Below are positions 23,546 to 30,914 of a DNA stretch of 64,000 nucleotides, piece by piece. Origin of the DNA: Arthrobacter pullicola (lineage in GTDB: Bacteria > Actinomycetota > Actinomycetes > Actinomycetales > Micrococcaceae); assembly GCF_014836875.1 (NCBI RefSeq), contig NZ_JACSQC010000004.1, positions 372,001 through 436,000 on the forward strand. Reading direction: 5' to 3'. Every line of letters begins with the position of its first letter. Position 1 is the stretch's first letter. Under the pieces are notes generated by a model that saw nothing but the letters and a program-made list of their open reading frames with translations, was not told where the DNA came from and made no database searches. The position numbers and the translations under genes were made by a program.

Positions 23546-23934
23546 GAGGCGCTCCCGGCTACCGGGGCCCAGTTCTCCGGCTGGCACCCGGTGGGTGATG
23601 TAGGCGGAATAAGGAAAAACTCCGGCCAGCACCGCAGCCGTTCGAAAAGAAAGCATGCTGCCGACCGGACTTTCATGCTACGCACCGCCGCAGCGCCCTC
23701 CAAGTCCGCCCGTCCGGCGCGGCTCAGCCCAAAGGATGAAAGCGCTCAACCCCGGGGAGGGGAAACGCCGTCCTGCGCCGTTTCATCGCTGAAGTGCCCG
23801 GGGAAGCTGGTAGCGTCCATCCCAGTCAAACCGGGACCACGGCACGCCTGCACGGTGTGCGGAGTGGGTTCTCGGACAAAGTACGCGGCTGGCCCCACCC
23901 GGCAGCGGTCTCTATCCACAATTGGAGAGCCCCT

Positions 23935-24981
23935 ATGGGTGTTGCCAGGCGCATTGTTTTCCCTGTTCTTTGGCTGGTGGTCTTCGCCGTCATTGCCGCA
24001 GCTCTGTTCAAATTGGCGTTCCTCGATGGGCTTAGTGCCCAGGCTGAAACCCAGGTTCCCTCCGCCGCGCTGCAGACCGCAACGGTGCAGGCAGTCCGGG
24101 GGAGCATCACCAACACCGTGGATGTCCAGGGATCCGTGGTGTCGGATCCGGCTGTACCTGTCCGGAGCACCAGCGACGGGTTGGTCGTTTACATCGATGC
24201 TGAGCAGGGTCAGCGGATTGAAAAGGGGGAAAGGCTCTTCCAGGTGCGCAAGCCCCTGGAAGAGCAGCCGGCACCGCAGCCGGCCGCGGAGGAGGACTCT
24301 GCGCCGGTCCCGGCGGCCCCGCGCTACACATATGTCGATGTCACTGCGGCGGCATCCGGAACCCTGGCCAGCTTTCCGGTGCTGCTCAACCAGCAGGTGA
24401 GCGTGGGTACGGAAATCGCGTCGATCGACCCTGGCACCTTCTCCGTCCAGGGCGGGCTGACCACTGACCAGCAGTTCCGCATCCTGGACCGGCCAAACAC
24501 GGCAGAGGTAACCATCAACGGCGGTCCCGCGCCGTTCGCCTGCAGCGACGTCACCATGGGCAAGACCACTCCGGCAGCTGATGGCATCTCCACCCAGGCC
24601 CAGTCCCAGGCCCAGCCCGCCGTCGGGCAGCCGGCTGCCGGGCAGGGCCCGGGTACCGTGAGCTGCTCCGTCCCGGCGGATGTCTCGGTCTTCGCTGGCC
24701 TCGGAGCCGCCATCACCATTACGGCGGGCCAGTCACTGGATGCGGTGACGGTGCCAACCACGGCGGTGCAGGGCGCGGTGCAGAACGGCGTCGTCTGGGT
24801 TGTCACGGCTGCGGGTGCCTCGGAGGAACGGGCCGTCGTCCTGGGCCTGACGGACGGCCAGTCCGTGGAAATCTCCGAAGGGCTGAGCGAGGGGGAGGAG
24901 ATCCTGTTGTTTGTTCCGGGTGCGGAAGCGCCGCAGGACGGATCCCAGGTCGTGTACGGCCCCGGAGTGATGGGCGGATGA
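23935..24981 (+). CDS. Membrane-anchored adaptor of a MacAB-like ABC exporter
   Basis: A 348-residue membrane-fusion-type protein. The N-terminal anchor is VFPVLWLVVFAVIAAALFKLAF. A biotinyl-lipoyl-like split domain follows (VQGSVVSDPAVPVRSTSDGLVVYIDAEQGQRIEKGERLFQVR ... AAASGTLASFPVLLNQQVSVGTEIASI), then a beta-barrel with two cysteines (PFACSDVTMG and VSCSVPADVSVFAGL) that could form a disulfide outside the membrane. A short Gln/Ala/Pro-rich insert separates the cysteines. The ATG at 23935 follows TTGGAGAG. It forms an operon with the ATPase and permease through two ATGA overlaps. The substrate is unknown. Confidence 0.85.
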   Translation: MGVARRIVFPVLWLVVFAVIAAALFKLAFLDGLSAQAETQVPSAALQTATVQAVRGSITNTVDVQGSVVSDPAVPVRSTSDGLVVYIDAEQGQRIEKGERLFQVRKPLEEQPAPQPAAEEDSAPVPAAPRYTYVDVTAAASGTLASFPVLLNQQVSVGTEIASIDPGTFSVQGGLTTDQQFRILDRPNTAEVTINGGPAPFACSDVTMGKTTPAADGISTQAQSQAQPAVGQPAAGQGPGTVSCSVPADVSVFAGLGAAITITAGQSLDAVTVPTTAVQGAVQNGVVWVVTAAGASEERAVVLGLTDGQSVEISEGLSEGEEILLFVPGAEAPQDGSQVVYGPGVMGG

Positions 24982-25748
24982 GCGGGGTAACGCTGCCCCG
25001 CTCCGAACGGCGCGCGGACACCGGGTGGGCAGGACAACGGGTGCCGGAAGCCGGGGCGCTCGTCTCCATGGAAGCAGTCACCCGCAGCGTGCAGCTGCCG
25101 GATGGTGCCCTGTTGACGATTCTGGACGGCGTCGACCTCCGGGTCCACCGCGGTGACCACGTGTCCGTCGTCGGCCGTTCCGGTTCGGGCAAGTCCACGC
25201 TGCTGAATATCCTGGGCATGCTGGACCTGCCCACCACTGGCAGGATGGACTTCGACGGGATTCCCGTCGAGTCCATGAGCGGAAATGCCCGGGCAGTAAA
25301 ACGGGGGAGCTCGGTGGGGTTCATTTTCCAGCAGTTCAATCTGCTGGCCGAACGTACCGCGCTGGAAAATGTGATGACACCGCTGCTTTATGCCAAGGGA
25401 CGCTCCTTCTGGCAGCGGGAGAGGATTGCCGCGGACATGCTGGAGAAGGTTGGCCTGGGCAACCGGCTTAGCGACAAGCCGCAAAAGCTCTCCGGCGGTG
25501 AGCAGCAGCGGGTGGCAATTGCCCGGGCACTGGTGCGCAGGCCGGCGCTGATCCTGGCCGATGAACCCACCGGGGCGCTGGACATCACCACCGGGCAGGC
25601 AGTCATGGCGCTCCTGGCCGATGTTGTGGCCGAATCCGGTGCCGCGCTGGTCACGATTACCCACGATCCGGGCGTGGCTGCGCTCGCTGACCGGCATTAC
25701 CTGCTGGACGGCGGGCACCTTCGTCCCGGGGCGGAGCCCGCGGCATGA
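24978..25748 (+). CDS. ABC transporter ATP-binding protein (MacB/LolD type)
   Basis: A 256-residue ATPase. Walker A is GRSGSGKSTLLNILG, the LolD-type Q-loop is VGFIFQQFNLLAERTALENVMTPL, the signature is LSGGEQQRVAIARAL, and Walker B is LILADEPTGALD. The first about 30 residues are a variable extension and the true start may be the internal ATG at 25070 (MEAVTRSVQLPDG). It pairs with the overlapping FtsX-like permease and the adaptor, forming a tripartite efflux or lipid/peptide export system. Confidence 0.92.
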   Translation: MSGVTLPRSERRADTGWAGQRVPEAGALVSMEAVTRSVQLPDGALLTILDGVDLRVHRGDHVSVVGRSGSGKSTLLNILGMLDLPTTGRMDFDGIPVESMSGNARAVKRGSSVGFIFQQFNLLAERTALENVMTPLLYAKGRSFWQRERIAADMLEKVGLGNRLSDKPQKLSGGEQQRVAIARALVRRPALILADEPTGALDITTGQAVMALLADVVAESGAALVTITHDPGVAALADRHYLLDGGHLRPGAEPAA

Positions 25749-26950
25749 GCCTTTCAGGAATTACGGCCACCCTGGTGGAGGCCTGGACCGAACTGCGGAT
25801 CCACAAGGCCAGGATCCTGTTGGCCCTGGTGGGTGTGGCCCTCTCCGTGGCGGCCTTGACCGCTGTGGTGGGGCTGGCGGATATGGCCAGGGCGGCCATG
25901 GCCCAGGGGTCCGAGTCGCAGGGCGGACGCCCGGCAACCTTGAATGTTTCCGCCTATTCCATGGACGGATCCGAAACTGACGCCGCCGGGCTAAGGGACG
26001 CCTATGTAAATGTTGCGGAACGCTACTCCGTTGAACACTCGTCCTTGTTCCTGCCCACCCAGATTCCCTTCCAGTTCCCCGACGGCGTAGCGCAGACCGA
26101 CGCCCTTGTTGTGGATGCTGACTTCGGCACCATGCGCCGCGTTAATCTGCAGACTGGAACCTGGTTTACGGAGGCGGACACCCAGCGCATGGCACCGGCA
26201 GTGATCGTCAATGAGGCGTTCTACGCCAGGATGGGTTCCCCGGACCTGGCATTGGATCCCGTGGTGGAAATCTGGAACGGCGCTCCGGTGGACGCTGTCA
26301 TCACCGGGGTCCGGGCCAACACCTGGGAGCAGGAAATGCCCGCTGTCTACCTGCTGACCGCGGCGTACGACAGGCTCGGCCTGACAGGAGGGGGCATGGG
26401 CGCTTCGCCGATGCTGGAACTGTGGGTCCCGGAGGAGATTGCGCTTCCGCTGCAGGAAGCCATTACCGCTGACCTCACGGCGCAGTTCCCAAACTTCCAC
26501 GCCAACGTTTACCGGAGCGACTACGCCGCGTGGGGTGACCCGTACGCGGTGATGGAACTTGTTGTCGGCGGAATCGCGGCCATGGTGATGGTCCTGGGAG
26601 CCGTTGGTCTGCTCAACATCTCCATGGTGACTGTGAAGTACCGGGTACGGGAGATCGGTATCCGGCGCAGTTTCGGCGCAACGTCCGGCAGGATTTTCTT
26701 TGGCGTGATGCTGGAATCCGTGGTCGCAACCTTCGCCGCCGGCGTGGTGGGAGTCATGGCCGCTATCGCCCTGGTCAAACTGCCGATTGTGCAGCAGCAG
26801 ATCGCCTCGGGTGTGGCCGAACTGCCGCCGTTCCCCATCGAAGCGGCCCTGCTCGGACTGGGGGCGGCAACCGCCGTCGGCACGCTCGCCGGACTGATTC
26901 CGGCACTCGTTGCCGTCCGCGTGAAGGTCATTGACGCCATCCGCTACTAG
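25745..26950 (+). CDS. MacB/FtsX-type ABC permease
   Basis: A 401-residue permease of the type VII ABC fold. One N-terminal membrane helix (ARILLALVGVALSVAALTAVVGLADMA) is followed by a large extracytoplasmic MacB_PCD domain (about residues 50-270). Three C-terminal helices form the FtsX domain (ELVVGGIAAMVMVLGAVGLLNISMVTVKYRVREIGIRRSFGAT ...). These act mechanically on extracellular substrates rather than forming a classic pore. The start overlaps the ATPase stop by 4 nt. The gene ends 12 nt from a convergent lipoprotein gene. Confidence 0.9.
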   Translation: MSLSGITATLVEAWTELRIHKARILLALVGVALSVAALTAVVGLADMARAAMAQGSESQGGRPATLNVSAYSMDGSETDAAGLRDAYVNVAERYSVEHSSLFLPTQIPFQFPDGVAQTDALVVDADFGTMRRVNLQTGTWFTEADTQRMAPAVIVNEAFYARMGSPDLALDPVVEIWNGAPVDAVITGVRANTWEQEMPAVYLLTAAYDRLGLTGGGMGASPMLELWVPEEIALPLQEAITADLTAQFPNFHANVYRSDYAAWGDPYAVMELVVGGIAAMVMVLGAVGLLNISMVTVKYRVREIGIRRSFGATSGRIFFGVMLESVVATFAAGVVGVMAAIALVKLPIVQQQIASGVAELPPFPIEAALLGLGAATAVGTLAGLIPALVAVRVKVIDAIRY

Positions 26951-26962
26951 CCGGACACGGCC

Positions 26963-27379
26963 CTAGCACCCGAGTTCGGATTCCAGGCCGTCCCGGGCGT
27001 TGCGGATCTGCTCGATATCGTCGGACAGCGAGGCCGCTGCCTGGGGCACTGTCATGGACTCATCGATGTTCGCGACGGCGTCGTCGAAGTTCGTCCAGGC
27101 ATCGTCGAGGGCGGTCCGGCGGTCCTCGGCCACCGATTCCAGGGCAGGCCCCAGGTCCTGGTAAGCGTTTTCGATGGTGTCGCGCTCGGCCTGGATCTCC
27201 TCGATGGTGGAGGACGAGTCGATCGAGGCGCGGGCATCGGAGACAGCGCCGGAAAACTCTGCGTAGGCGTCGCAGGCCGACTGGGTGTTCTCCGCGGGGG
27301 TCTCGCTCCCGCTGCAGGCCGCTGCCGAGAGGGCGGCAGCGGCGAAAATGACGGTAAGGGCGAGTCGGCTGCCGGACAT
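26963..27379 (-). CDS. Small lipoprotein with helical domain, unknown function
   Basis: A 138-residue secreted lipoprotein. The signal MSGSRLALTVIFAAAALSAAACSGSE has a lipobox with Cys22. The mature part is Ala/Asp/Glu-rich and predicted helical (TIEEIQAERDTIENAYQDLGPALESV, then DDIEQIRNARDGLESELGC). One cysteine in the early mature part (SACDAY) and one at the very C-terminus could pair. The ATG at 27379 follows CCAGGAGGCACC. No family is recognised; similar acidic helical lipoproteins are common in Arthrobacter. Confidence 0.75.
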   Translation of the reverse strand: MSGSRLALTVIFAAAALSAAACSGSETPAENTQSACDAYAEFSGAVSDARASIDSSSTIEEIQAERDTIENAYQDLGPALESVAEDRRTALDDAWTNFDDAVANIDESMTVPQAAASLSDDIEQIRNARDGLESELGC

Positions 27380-27534
27380 GGGTGCCTCCTGGGGAACCGC
27401 GGATTTCAGCTGGGCGCGGCGCTGCAGGAACCGTACGCCGGAACTACATTCTCCGTAACACCGGAGGGAAGTGGAAGGCAGCAGCCACGGTGCCGCGGAA
27501 TCTGCGCTGAAAAAGGCCTGCACTGAAAAGCCCA

Positions 27535-27583
27535 CAAAAAAGCCAGGCCCTGACTTCCCCCTGGGGGAAGTCACGGCCTGGCC
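27535..27583 (-). terminator. Intrinsic terminator after tRNA-Arg
   Basis: A long hairpin with outer arms GGCCAGGCC/GGCCTGGC and inner arms TGACTTCCCC/GGGGAAGTCA, followed on the minus strand by TTTTTTTG. It lies 13 nt downstream of the tRNA gene. Confidence 0.85.
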
Positions 27584-27595
27584 GTTTCACATGCG

Positions 27596-27668
27596 TGCCC
27601 TCGATAGGATTCGAACCTACGGCCTGTTGCTCCGGAGGCAACCGCTCTATCCCCTGAGCTACGAGGGC
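27596..27668 (-). tRNA. tRNA-Arg (anticodon CCG)
   Basis: A 73-nt cloverleaf without encoded CCA. The acceptor stem is GCCCTCG/CGAGGGC with discriminator A. The D-arm begins AGCTCAGGGGATAGAGC. The anticodon stem GTTGC/GCAAC holds loop CTCCGGA, anticodon CCG. The T-arm contains GGTTCGAATCC. Confidence 0.96.
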
Positions 27669-27796: not shown

Positions 27797-29332
27797 TTAA
27801 TAGCCCAGGAACGGGTCGGTATGGATACGCCGGATGCCCGCCCTGCGGGCTTCCCGCCGGGTGAAGGAGACCGCCGACGGTGATCCGGCCACGAACGCCG
27901 ACCGCTCGGCTGCATCCGGCACGGCCTCCAGCAGCCGCGCCGCGTCCGGGAGGCCGGGGCCGAGCCAGGTCCATCCCGGCAGCTGGGGGTCGGCTGGCGT
28001 GCATGCGAAGAGCTGCACGCCCAGATCCGCCAGTTCGTGTGCGTAGGCCAGCTCCTGCGGCGAGGAGGCGGCGTAGATCAGCACGATGTCCCGGCCGTGC
28101 ATCCCTCCGGTGTGGTTGGTGCCGAGGGACCGCAGCTGGCCGGCGAAGGGCGTGATCCCGATTCCCGAGGCCACCATCAGGATTTTCCGGGACACATCGC
28201 GGGGGAGCTGAAAATCGCCGCCCACTGTCGTGGCAGTGATCCGGGTCCCCGGCTTCGCGCCCAGCAGCTTTGTCTTGAAGGAGCTTCCGGGTGAGGCAAC
28301 CCGCATGGCCACGGACACCGTGCCCGCATCCGCCGGGTCCGAGGTGATGCTGAAGATCCGCCGCAGGCCCCGTCCATCCGGGTTCGGATGGGGCAGGCTT
28401 AGTTCCAGATACTGACCGGCCCGGTAACGCAGGGGACGTTCCGGAACGAACACCAGTTCCCGCGACGTCGGGGTCAGTTCACGGGTTTCGCGCAGGCGCA
28501 GGCTGATGCCGCCGCGCTGGCCGGCTGCGAAGGCCAGCAGGTTTCCGATCAGCAGCGCCAGCTCGGGGGACATAAAGACCGGTCCCACGGAGAGTGGGGT
28601 GGTGAACAGGACTCCGACGACGGCGGCCTCAGCGAGCCGCTGCCAGCGCAGGGGCGGCAGGGTCAGCGGCTCCGACAGCATGAAGCCGGCGAAGAAGATG
28701 ATGGGGTAGGAAGTAAAGGCGGTGGCCAGCCCTTCCAGGGCCGGCTCGCCCGAAACGGTGAAGCGGAGAACCACAATCCCGACTGTGACGAGGACAAATA
28801 CTCCGGCCATCGGCAGCAGCCGGCTCCGGTAGAGCACCAGGAACGCGGCGGGCAGCACCACGATGAGCATCAGGGGAGCGGCGGCCCACCAGACCGGCGT
28901 GTTGAGCCCGGTCAGGCCAATCACGACGGCGCCGAGAGCCGCCGGATTAAAGATGTGCCGGCGGCGCCAGACGAGGAGGTACTTCGATGCCGTGGCCGCG
29001 AACGCAGCCAGGGCAATAGTGCCGAGCTCGGGACCGCTGGTGGTCGGCCAGAAGAGGAAAAACAGCAGCAGCCCAGTGATCAGCGCCGAGTCGGTCTGCG
29101 GGAAGGTGCGGAAGAGCAGCCCCATGACGCGGCTGGCAACCAGCGTTGAAATGATGGCGGTGGCAAGAGTTGCACCCAGTTCTGCCGGTGTATAGAAAAG
29201 TGCGCCGGTCAGGGAAAGCACGAATGACCAGGCCGCCATGGCCAGCAGCAGCACCACGAGCATCCGGTACATGCTCGTTTTGCCGAGCAGGCGCTGCAGC
29301 CGTGCGGTGGGGGGACTCAGGGATACGGTCAT
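27797..29332 (-). CDS. RnfD/NqrB-like membrane domain fused to FAD/NAD(P) ferredoxin-reductase module
   Basis: A 511-residue fusion. Residues about 20-265 contain some eight hydrophobic helices with the RnfD/NqrB-like element FNPAALGAVVIGLTGLN. Residues about 275-511 are a ferredoxin-NADP reductase-like module: flavin site RAGQYLELSLP and RRIFSITSDP, NAD(P) site VASGIGITPFAGQLRSL, and C-terminal FVAGSP followed by DPFLGY. It should take electrons from NAD(P)H in the cytoplasm and pass them across the membrane. An SGAT flavinylation motif is not apparent in the membrane half. ApbE overlaps its start by 4 nt, and an FMN-binding lipoprotein precedes, together forming a flavin electron-transfer operon. 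Confidence 0.85.
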   Translation of the reverse strand: MTVSLSPPTARLQRLLGKTSMYRMLVVLLLAMAAWSFVLSLTGALFYTPAELGATLATAIISTLVASRVMGLLFRTFPQTDSALITGLLLFFLFWPTTSGPELGTIALAAFAATASKYLLVWRRRHIFNPAALGAVVIGLTGLNTPVWWAAAPLMLIVVLPAAFLVLYRSRLLPMAGVFVLVTVGIVVLRFTVSGEPALEGLATAFTSYPIIFFAGFMLSEPLTLPPLRWQRLAEAAVVGVLFTTPLSVGPVFMSPELALLIGNLLAFAAGQRGGISLRLRETRELTPTSRELVFVPERPLRYRAGQYLELSLPHPNPDGRGLRRIFSITSDPADAGTVSVAMRVASPGSSFKTKLLGAKPGTRITATTVGGDFQLPRDVSRKILMVASGIGITPFAGQLRSLGTNHTGGMHGRDIVLIYAASSPQELAYAHELADLGVQLFACTPADPQLPGWTWLGPGLPDAARLLEAVPDAAERSAFVAGSPSAVSFTRREARRAGIRRIHTDPFLGY

Positions 29333-30204
29333 GAAAAGAGGACTCCAGCCATAGCGTTGGAAAACTGTGCCCTGCCGTCGGAGAACATCCGGATGTACTC
29401 GAAGCTGAACTCGGCAGCGAGCAGGGCGGGATCGGTGATGAACAGTGCGGTTGCCAGGCCATCGGCGGTCATCGCGTCGGCGGCGAGGACCCAGGTGGCG
29501 GCTACGGCGTCCACCGGGCGGCCGGTGGACGCGTCGAGGACGTGGTGCAGGCCTTCGCCCCAGTTCCGGCGGTTGGCTGCGGAGGCGCAGAGTGCGCGGT
29601 CCTGAAGGTCAAGAACGCCGACCGCGGCGGCGGGGTCGAAGGGGTGTTCCAGAGCAACCCGGAGGCTCCGGGGCCCGGAATGCCGCATGTCGGAACCGGC
29701 GTCAACCACTACGGCAGCATATCCGCGTGCGGTGAGCAGCTCCCAGACGAGGTCCACCAGCTGGCCCTTTCCGGCGGCACCCACATCCACGGTGGCGGGC
29801 TGTGCCAGGGTCAGGGCCACGGCATCCGGCGGTCCCTGGCGCTGCCATGAAGCGGTGGACGTCCAGTCCGGCGCCGCAGCCGGAGGACCCTGGGGACGCA
29901 GCGGGTAGCCGGGTCCGTAGCCCAGCTGCTCCAGTGATCCGCCGACCAGCGGGTTCAGCCTGCCCTGCGTCAGCTTTTCCAAGCTGTCGAACAGGCTGAA
30001 CAGGGGTGCCGTGTAACCCGGGAGGAGGCCGGTGCCGCCGGTGTGGCCGAGCGCGGACACCACGGAGTCCGGGCGAAAGCGGGACAGCGCGGCGTCATAC
30101 TGATCCACGAGCGCGCGGACCTCACTGCGGGCAGCAGCGTCCAGCGGCACCTCGGTGGTGATGTGCCATTGCGTGCCGATCGCCTCGAACGCGAAGGACT
30201 CCAT
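29329..30204 (-). CDS. apbE: FAD:protein FMN transferase (ApbE)
   Basis: A 291-residue flavin transferase that attaches FMN covalently to Thr/Ser of FMN-binding domains, using FAD and Mg2+. It shows FEAIGTQWHITTEVPLD near the N-terminus, FRPDSVVSAL, the conserved VDVGAAGKGQLVDLV, VDAGSDMRHSG and the metal-binding C-terminal AADAMTADGLATALF. No signal peptide is obvious, so the site of action (cytoplasm or outside) is uncertain. The start at 30204 (MESFAFEAIG) lies 13 nt after the FMN-binding lipoprotein stop, and its stop overlaps the reductase gene. Confidence 0.92.
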   Translation of the reverse strand: MESFAFEAIGTQWHITTEVPLDAAARSEVRALVDQYDAALSRFRPDSVVSALGHTGGTGLLPGYTAPLFSLFDSLEKLTQGRLNPLVGGSLEQLGYGPGYPLRPQGPPAAAPDWTSTASWQRQGPPDAVALTLAQPATVDVGAAGKGQLVDLVWELLTARGYAAVVVDAGSDMRHSGPRSLRVALEHPFDPAAAVGVLDLQDRALCASAANRRNWGEGLHHVLDASTGRPVDAVAATWVLAADAMTADGLATALFITDPALLAAEFSFEYIRMFSDGRAQFSNAMAGVLFS

Positions 30205-30217
30205 TGCCGCGGATCCC

Positions 30218-30694
30218 CTAGCTGGCCGCCTCGCCCTTGACCATCTCCAGGGCCTTGTTGAAGCCCTGGCTGGTGAGGGAGGAGCCGGCCACCTTGCCGA
30301 CATCCAGACTGTCCAGCGGCTTGCCGACGACCTGCTCCTGGATACCGTCGGTGAACTCCGCCTGATAGCGCTTCGACGTCGGGTTGTTGCCCGACGGCGT
30401 TACCTCCAGGGCGGTCACGGTGCCGCCGGAGAGCGTCACCTTCACAGTGACTTCCTCCTGCTGGTTCGACGGCGGGATATAGGTTCCGGTTCCCGTGTAC
30501 TCGCCGTCCGCGTAGGTGCCGGTTCCTGCAGCCGCTCCGGACTCCAGCGGGGCCGATGCGGGGGAGGAGGCCGGAGTGGAGGAGGGCGTGCCGGCCGGGT
30601 TGTCGGCGGCTCCATCAGACCCGCAGCCCGCTGTCCCCAGGAGTGTCAGCCCTGCAACGACGGTCAGGATGGGCTTCTTGGCCTGCGGTTTCAC
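30218..30694 (-). CDS. FMN-binding domain lipoprotein
   Basis: A 158-residue extracytoplasmic lipoprotein (MKPQAKKPILTVVAGLTLLGTAGC, Cys24). After a Ser/Pro/Ala-rich linker comes one FMN-binding (NqrC/RnfG-like) domain with TYADGEYTGTGTYIPP, VKVTLSGGTVTALEVTP and the flavinylation region DVGKVAGSSLTSQGFNKAL. The motif reads AGSS instead of the common SGA(T/S), making Ser the likely acceptor of FMN. It is first in an operon with ApbE and the membrane reductase, and would be its terminal extracellular electron carrier. Confidence 0.88.
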   Translation of the reverse strand: MKPQAKKPILTVVAGLTLLGTAGCGSDGAADNPAGTPSSTPASSPASAPLESGAAAGTGTYADGEYTGTGTYIPPSNQQEEVTVKVTLSGGTVTALEVTPSGNNPTSKRYQAEFTDGIQEQVVGKPLDSLDVGKVAGSSLTSQGFNKALEMVKGEAAS

Positions 30695-30914
30695 GGGTTT
30701 CTCCTTGGTCTTTGGCGGAACGTCCTGGGCGCATCCGGCCGCGGCGGCGGCCGGTCGGCCACGCGGGACGGAAAATGAGCTCCCTCTTTATTACAGCGCA
30801 TGAACCCTGCAGGTTTCCTCCGGGCACCGGGAGCCCCCCGGCAGGACAAGACCCTGCGGCGGAGCCAAACGGGAGGAATAAAGGCGCGGTGCCTGTCCCC
30901 GCTATGCTTAACCA

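Follow-up and report, generated by a model that had tools for sequence, protein, structure and literature searches.

What kind of electron-transfer system is encoded by a small flavin-related operon of Arthrobacter pullicola, and where in the cell does its flavin become attached? The window analysed is a stretch of 64,000 nucleotides (nt) of this bacterium, in which the operon is read on the minus strand; all coordinates are window positions. Three adjoining genes make up the operon. The first encodes a lipoprotein with an FMN_bind domain (30218-30694; 158 amino acids (aa), GTG start, PF04205 match), the second is apbE for FAD:protein FMN transferase (29329-30204; 291 aa from the ATG at 30204), and the third encodes a fusion of a membrane domain with an NAD(P)H reductase (27797-29332; 511 aa). 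By their reading frames, 13 nt lie between the lipoprotein stop and the apbE start (30205-30217), and apbE and the fusion gene overlap by 4 nt (29329-29332). A preliminary description of this DNA had proposed a three-gene flavin electron-transfer operon here, and its coordinates, gap and overlap are all as it gave them.

It is quite likely that the operon encodes a carrier of the published NQR/RNF-like type, which moves electrons across the membrane one way, from NAD(P)H inside to a flavinylated lipoprotein outside. As its family suggests, the cytosolic half of the fusion would oxidise NAD(P)H via flavin adenine dinucleotide (FAD). From there, the NqrB/RnfD-type half would carry the electrons across the membrane, probably on a flavin that it binds non-covalently, as has been suggested in print for the group. 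On the outer face, flavin mononucleotide (FMN) carried by the lipoprotein would be reduced; judging from the motif, the ApbE of the operon itself most likely attaches this FMN to Ser139 through an ester link. The reduced lipoprotein would pass the electrons to an extracellular acceptor.

The membrane half (residues 1-271, 28520-29332) is not recognised by the Pfam family PF03116, which has no match in the window fusion at an expectation value (E) up to 1. With the current model, PF03116 is above its cut-off in none of 29 genus genomes and none of 59 relatives, own genome included. Because the window protein does not reach PF03116, its NqrB/RnfD identity was shown by profile and structure. Fold searches with the whole fusion were swamped by the reductase half, and the membrane half was therefore folded and searched alone. 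The predicted fold (mean predicted local distance difference test score 89.7) has 12 predicted helices, some of them short. Its 15 best matches among PDB structures were all RnfD or NqrB chains (Z 20.5-23.9, root-mean-square deviation (rmsd) 3.5-6.2, 235-257 residues aligned), and the next fold was a urea transporter (Z 12.3, rmsd 3.5, 214 residues aligned). Comparison of its profile with an RnfD/NqrB alignment gave a probability of 95.7 (E 1e-8), and a profile search of PDB sequences returned RnfD as the sole match at E up to 10 (E 6e-4). Since structure, profile comparison and PDB sequence match agree, the membrane half is a genuine, though distant, NqrB/RnfD homologue. The earlier RnfD/NqrB-like assignment is thus borne out, and an unrelated transporter fold, named at that time as what would overturn it, is excluded. 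As for the flavin that the same description bound to this half, we can only infer it, and the covalent-FMN loop is missing: in the alignment, the outer segment with SGAT/TGAT, which holds the covalent-FMN threonine of NqrB/RnfD, has no counterpart in the window's branch. Basic residues occur in alternate loops of the membrane half, those of inner loop 220-228 being confined to the beginning of the following helix, and both fusion ends and the reductase are therefore predicted inside. The shortened loop of residues 142-152 is predicted outside.

The reductase half (residues 272-511, 27797-28519), expected to bind FAD and NAD(P), resembles FNR and the FAD domain of NqrF by sequence and structure. 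In Pfam, the fusion scores 20.5 bits with NAD_binding_1 (PF00175), just under the cut-off of 22, and 17.3 bits with FAD_binding_6, under the cut-off of 21.1. RRxFS, GxGxTP and the C-terminal DxFxGY, which we take to be FAD and NAD(P) motifs, are invariant in 24 aligned fusions (the window and 23 of 31 loci). No stretch of the fusion protein is left over to hold a 2Fe-2S domain. An FNR-type reductase on the inside, as foreseen in the preliminary description, agrees with both the NqrF/FNR structures and the pattern of basic residues. Alignment A1 has the window and 23 of 31 loci, A2 the window and 20 of 31, A3 the window and 14 of 30, and A4 the window and 23 others, L135 having been dropped for a broken frame.

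The lipoprotein has a signal peptide with Cys24 after a hydrophobic stretch, a Ser/Ala/Pro-rich linker and one FMN_bind domain (NqrC/RnfG-like) that scores 22.1 bits against a PF04205 cut-off of 22. Its profile found no FMN_bind structure in PDB, matching through the signal and linker only. Signals were judged by script and by eye, and a lipoprotein-type cysteine is present in 36 of 37 lipoproteins; from such a signal the protein is predicted to lie outside, where it had been placed before. ApbE is described as recognising D-x-x-[S/T]-G-A-[S/T] and attaching FMN to the last residue, with threonine preferred and serine accepted (available parts of PMC12052999). The corresponding stretch in the window is G133-K-V-A-G-S-S139-L-T-S142 (30269-30298, with the Ser139 codon at 30278-30280). 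Among the 37 lipoproteins the motif takes 12 forms, DKVAGSS being the commonest (17/37) and GKVAGSS that of the window. Serine stands at the acceptor position in all 37, SSLT[S/A] is likewise kept in 37/37, and the canonical Ser at motif position 4 occurs in 1/37. The Ser139 region aligns with the GAT/GST acceptor of NqrC, and Ser139 is likely the FMN attachment residue. The FMN_bind proteins of two homologous operons, L133 and L134, have canonical motifs (TGAT and SGAT, respectively) and are membrane-anchored, with no lipobox. The serine motif is therefore not common to all homologous operons; it marks the window's own branch. This serine-variant flavinylation motif had been overlooked in the preliminary description.

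ApbE is identified by PF02424 (132.8 bits, cut-off 25.6) and by ApbE structures. It begins directly with the enzyme domain and shares with solved ApbE structures the Ser, His and Asp columns, which in our reading would correspond to the triad described in PMC12052999.

The three genes travel together. All 29 genus genomes sampled contain a match to the fusion, with A. luteolus (91% identity) and A. gallicola (89%) as the closest named relatives. The order lipoprotein-apbE-fusion is found in 31 of 32 loci examined, the remaining one (L036) being a contig end, and the 4-nt overlap between apbE and the fusion in 30 of 30 loci with both genes called (starts picked nearest to the window's). Compared with three congeners, the three genes have ratios of nonsynonymous to synonymous substitution rates (dN/dS) of 0.08-0.23. 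The operon is not a chance arrangement, because order and overlap are kept at such dN/dS values. At locus L082 of one genus genome (G013, 94% complete) both the fusion and apbE are split over two frames, perhaps by sequencing errors. The own genome (G000) has one PF04205 match and one ApbE match, the sole members of their families found there. Each genus genome gives a single ApbE match, apart from two: G025 holds an additional cluster on a different contig, and in G013 the gene is in two pieces. Outside the genus the fusion is patchy. One of eight other family genomes (G036) has a whole-length match, and in three others the match is confined to the reductase half. In a sample of the phylum, whole-length matches occur in 8 of 396 genomes, own genome included, one of them (G353) with an internal stop, and many more genomes match through the reductase half alone. 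Incidentally, L107-L121, mostly from small genomes of family f28, hold a free-standing protein of ~230 aa resembling the reductase half alone, and several of these genomes also have strong PF03116 matches elsewhere.

An NQR/RNF-like flavinylation system has been described (Meheust et al. 2021, PMC8238504; Huang et al. 2024, PMC10979944). In the parts of these papers available, it is proposed to transfer electrons one way from NAD(P)H to the outside, and is reported primarily from Actinobacteria and the candidate phyla radiation. The published search asked for PF03116 with PF00175 in one protein (PMC8238504), and the covalent FMN site of NqrB/RnfD is said not to be conserved in the group (PMC10979944). 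The preliminary description had seen here a candidate for a poorly described system, which does not hold, as the same architecture and direction of flow already stand in the two papers. The link to the window comes from genome G149 (L134). Its full-length homologue of the fusion passes both PF03116 (33.3 bits, cut-off 27.7) and PF00175 (43.5 bits, cut-off 22) and is preceded by apbE and an FMN_bind gene, whose product scores 36.4 bits, has the motif DTVSGAT and carries a membrane anchor and no lipobox. The operon of G414 (L133) resembles it, with FMN_bind at 29.6 bits and the motif NTVTGAT; its apbE is readable in part. Since the G149 operon agrees with the published definition in full and its fusion is homologous, the window operon belongs with the published kind. 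Because none of the 29 genus genomes passes PF03116, the genus branch is probably absent from the 2021 census. Searches by the published Pfam definition would overlook this branch, and its spread is probably underestimated; an NQR/RNF-like system was found here in all the genomes sampled from a common genus of soil bacteria. As a separate observation, six actinobacterial RnfD-like proteins (L190-L195) match PF03116 and have no reductase half; they carry a motif like SKYLIR..HIFNPSN, and the L193 protein continues, by eye, into a long FG-GAP-like region. Profiles at E 0.01 found no FMN_bind or ApbE near L190-L195, a weak absence since the same profiles had missed the FMN_bind proteins of L133 and L134.

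Several observations weigh against a flavinylated carrier. FMN_bind is above the Pfam cut-off in the lipoprotein of only 13 of 29 genus genomes; the single PF04205 match of G025 belongs to another locus, not to the operon lipoprotein. The commonest form of the motif has two differences from DxxSGAT, and the window's form has three. Hydropathy reveals no recognisable export signal on ApbE in any of the 36 operon loci with a readable start, and an Arg-Arg pair, as for twin-arginine translocation (Tat), is present in 1 of 37 lipoprotein signals. Finally, among the scanned flanks (ten annotated proteins, out of many frames, from seven loci) there is no recurring gene that points to the acceptor, for which the preliminary description gave no name either.

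The missing export signal on ApbE, whose target is an exported lipoprotein, had gone unmentioned before. The lipoprotein signals of L131 and L135, with misplaced starts, were not properly readable. In the 36 readable loci, in-frame extensions upstream of ApbE reach a best 15-residue hydropathy of at most 0.69. The first 40 residues of the 36 ApbEs have hydropathies of 0.13-1.53, compared with 1.65-2.79 in 12 FMN_bind proteins. ApbE is also signal-less in the G149 operon (L134), and by this reading the signal-less ApbE is more widely shared than the serine motif. Such a pairing with an exported target means that FMN is attached before export, or that ApbE gets out by another route, or that FMN is bound non-covalently. 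A signal-less ApbE with a soluble target is on record for Klebsiella (PMC12052999). In the 2021 census, by the available text of PMC8238504, signal-less genes were removed when extracytosolic components were counted, and clusters were kept with one signal in any target gene. Tentatively, and with more doubt than confidence, we suggest that ApbE acts inside the cell with cytosolic FAD and joins FMN to the lipoprotein either ahead of its export or in the course of it; this might hold for the FMN_bind systems of actinobacteria in general. If so, no FAD exporter would be required, and the order of events would be unlike the extracytosolic flavinylation described for NqrC and Listeria. Tat export was considered as an explanation for a cytosolic ApbE and, with its Arg-Arg pair in 1/37 signals, is unsupported for this lipoprotein. 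A literature search found no title on flavinylation before export, nor on this operon in Arthrobacter. The signal-less ApbE against its exported target poses a testable question, namely the cellular site of flavinylation in Actinobacteria.

Within the carrier reading, the acceptor could be iron, the operon serving iron uptake by reduction of ferric iron or siderophores outside; this would be a choice of acceptor rather than a different machine. A VIT1 iron transporter occurs in 6 of 127 NQR/RNF-like clusters (PMC8238504), but the surroundings here make iron uptake rather unlikely. The ten flanking proteins from seven related loci comprise, by Pfam, peptidase M4, an AraC-type regulator, a cation ATPase, a histidine kinase, prs, DUF1648, ROK, OmdA, HxlR and one without any match, none belonging to a known iron-uptake family. 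No iron-box-like site was seen upstream of the operon, the best match having 10 mismatches of 19 to the consensus. The operon is small and holds the sole ApbE and FMN_bind genes found in the genome, so a deletion test for the acceptor should be easy.

It is less probable still that the fusion is a stand-alone membrane ferric (or quinone) reductase, the lipoprotein binding FMN weakly or non-covalently and ApbE serving another target. The marginal FMN_bind score and the motif without canonical [S/T]-G-A-[S/T] would suit this, as would NAD_binding_6, the NAD domain of ferric reductases, which has weak matches (E up to 1) in 23 of 24 fusions. However, NAD_binding_1 does better than NAD_binding_6 in the window fusion (20.5 versus 14.2 bits), the genome has no second PF04205 match, and the joint occurrence of the three genes, the SSLT[S/A] kept in all 37 lipoproteins and the canonical GAT motifs of the distant L133 and L134 all speak against it. 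It is very improbable that the complex pumps ions or works as a quinone-linked respiratory enzyme in the manner of NQR or RNF, despite the homology of the membrane half to the pump subunits NqrB/RnfD, as no other NQR/RNF subunit lies in the operon or among the neighbours scanned, PF03116 stays below its cut-off in all 59 relatives and the covalent-FMN loop is missing.

Around the operon, argS adjoins divergently in 30 of 38 loci, all within the family. A TGTAAT element (30790-30795, minus strand), conserved in 16 of the 20 aligned upstream regions listed, is a possible -10 box of the operon promoter. In the same aligned regions, GGTTAAGCATAGC is conserved on the operon strand within 30695-30914, just before argS. 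The argS strand has TATGCT 6 nt ahead of the GTG, and argS may therefore be leaderless. On the other side, a MacAB-type export cluster (23794-26950) encodes an HlyD-like protein, an ABC ATPase and a MacB/FtsX-like permease consecutively. It is followed by a small lipoprotein-like open reading frame (26963-27574) with no Pfam match above cut-off and, adjoining that, tRNA-Arg(CCG) at 27595-27668.

How does the carrier compare with known systems? Like the flavin-based extracellular electron transfer of Listeria (FmnB; PMC9973259, in the parts available), it belongs to a Gram-positive bacterium and combines an outside flavinylated protein with an ApbE-like enzyme. In Listeria, however, flavinylation is extracytosolic, whereas the window has an ApbE without recognisable export signal and an RnfD-like membrane part. 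MsrQ-like clusters in relatives of the order share the FMN_bind gene followed by a signal-less ApbE (5 of 8 loci, start readable), but their motifs are of the canonical GAT type, and the RnfD-like fusion is replaced by one with Ferric_reduct (PF01794; 4 of 8 loci checked). A cluster of this type is the second FMN_bind/ApbE locus of G025 (L096, G025:C13), on another contig, with FMN_bind at 40.8 bits beside a Ferric_reduct/NAD-binding fusion. In L092, L094, L095, L098 and L099, FMN_bind/ApbE loci of relatives, ApbE has no signal peptide, and an Arg-Arg pair is seen by eye in the FMN_bind signal of four of them and of L093. Such signals in MsrQ-type loci may suit Tat export of an already flavinylated protein.

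With the NQR and RNF complexes, the operon shares folds or motifs of three functional domains (NqrB/RnfD, NqrC/RnfG and NqrF). It differs from them in a single electron path, a reductase without 2Fe-2S and a membrane part without the covalent-FMN loop; no further NQR/RNF subunits were found among the operon genes or the neighbours scanned. The closest likeness is to the NQR/RNF-like system, which has the same FMN_bind protein, ApbE and NqrB/RnfD-like membrane domain fused to a C-terminal NAD-binding domain, and likewise no covalent FMN threonine of NqrB/RnfD in the window's branch. The genus branch departs from the published definition in being too divergent for PF03116 (0/29), and the window's branch may differ from published members in its serine motif. 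By architecture and the features tested, the window operon belongs to the NQR/RNF-like systems; the kind itself is already known, and the interest lies in the divergent branch and the site of flavinylation.

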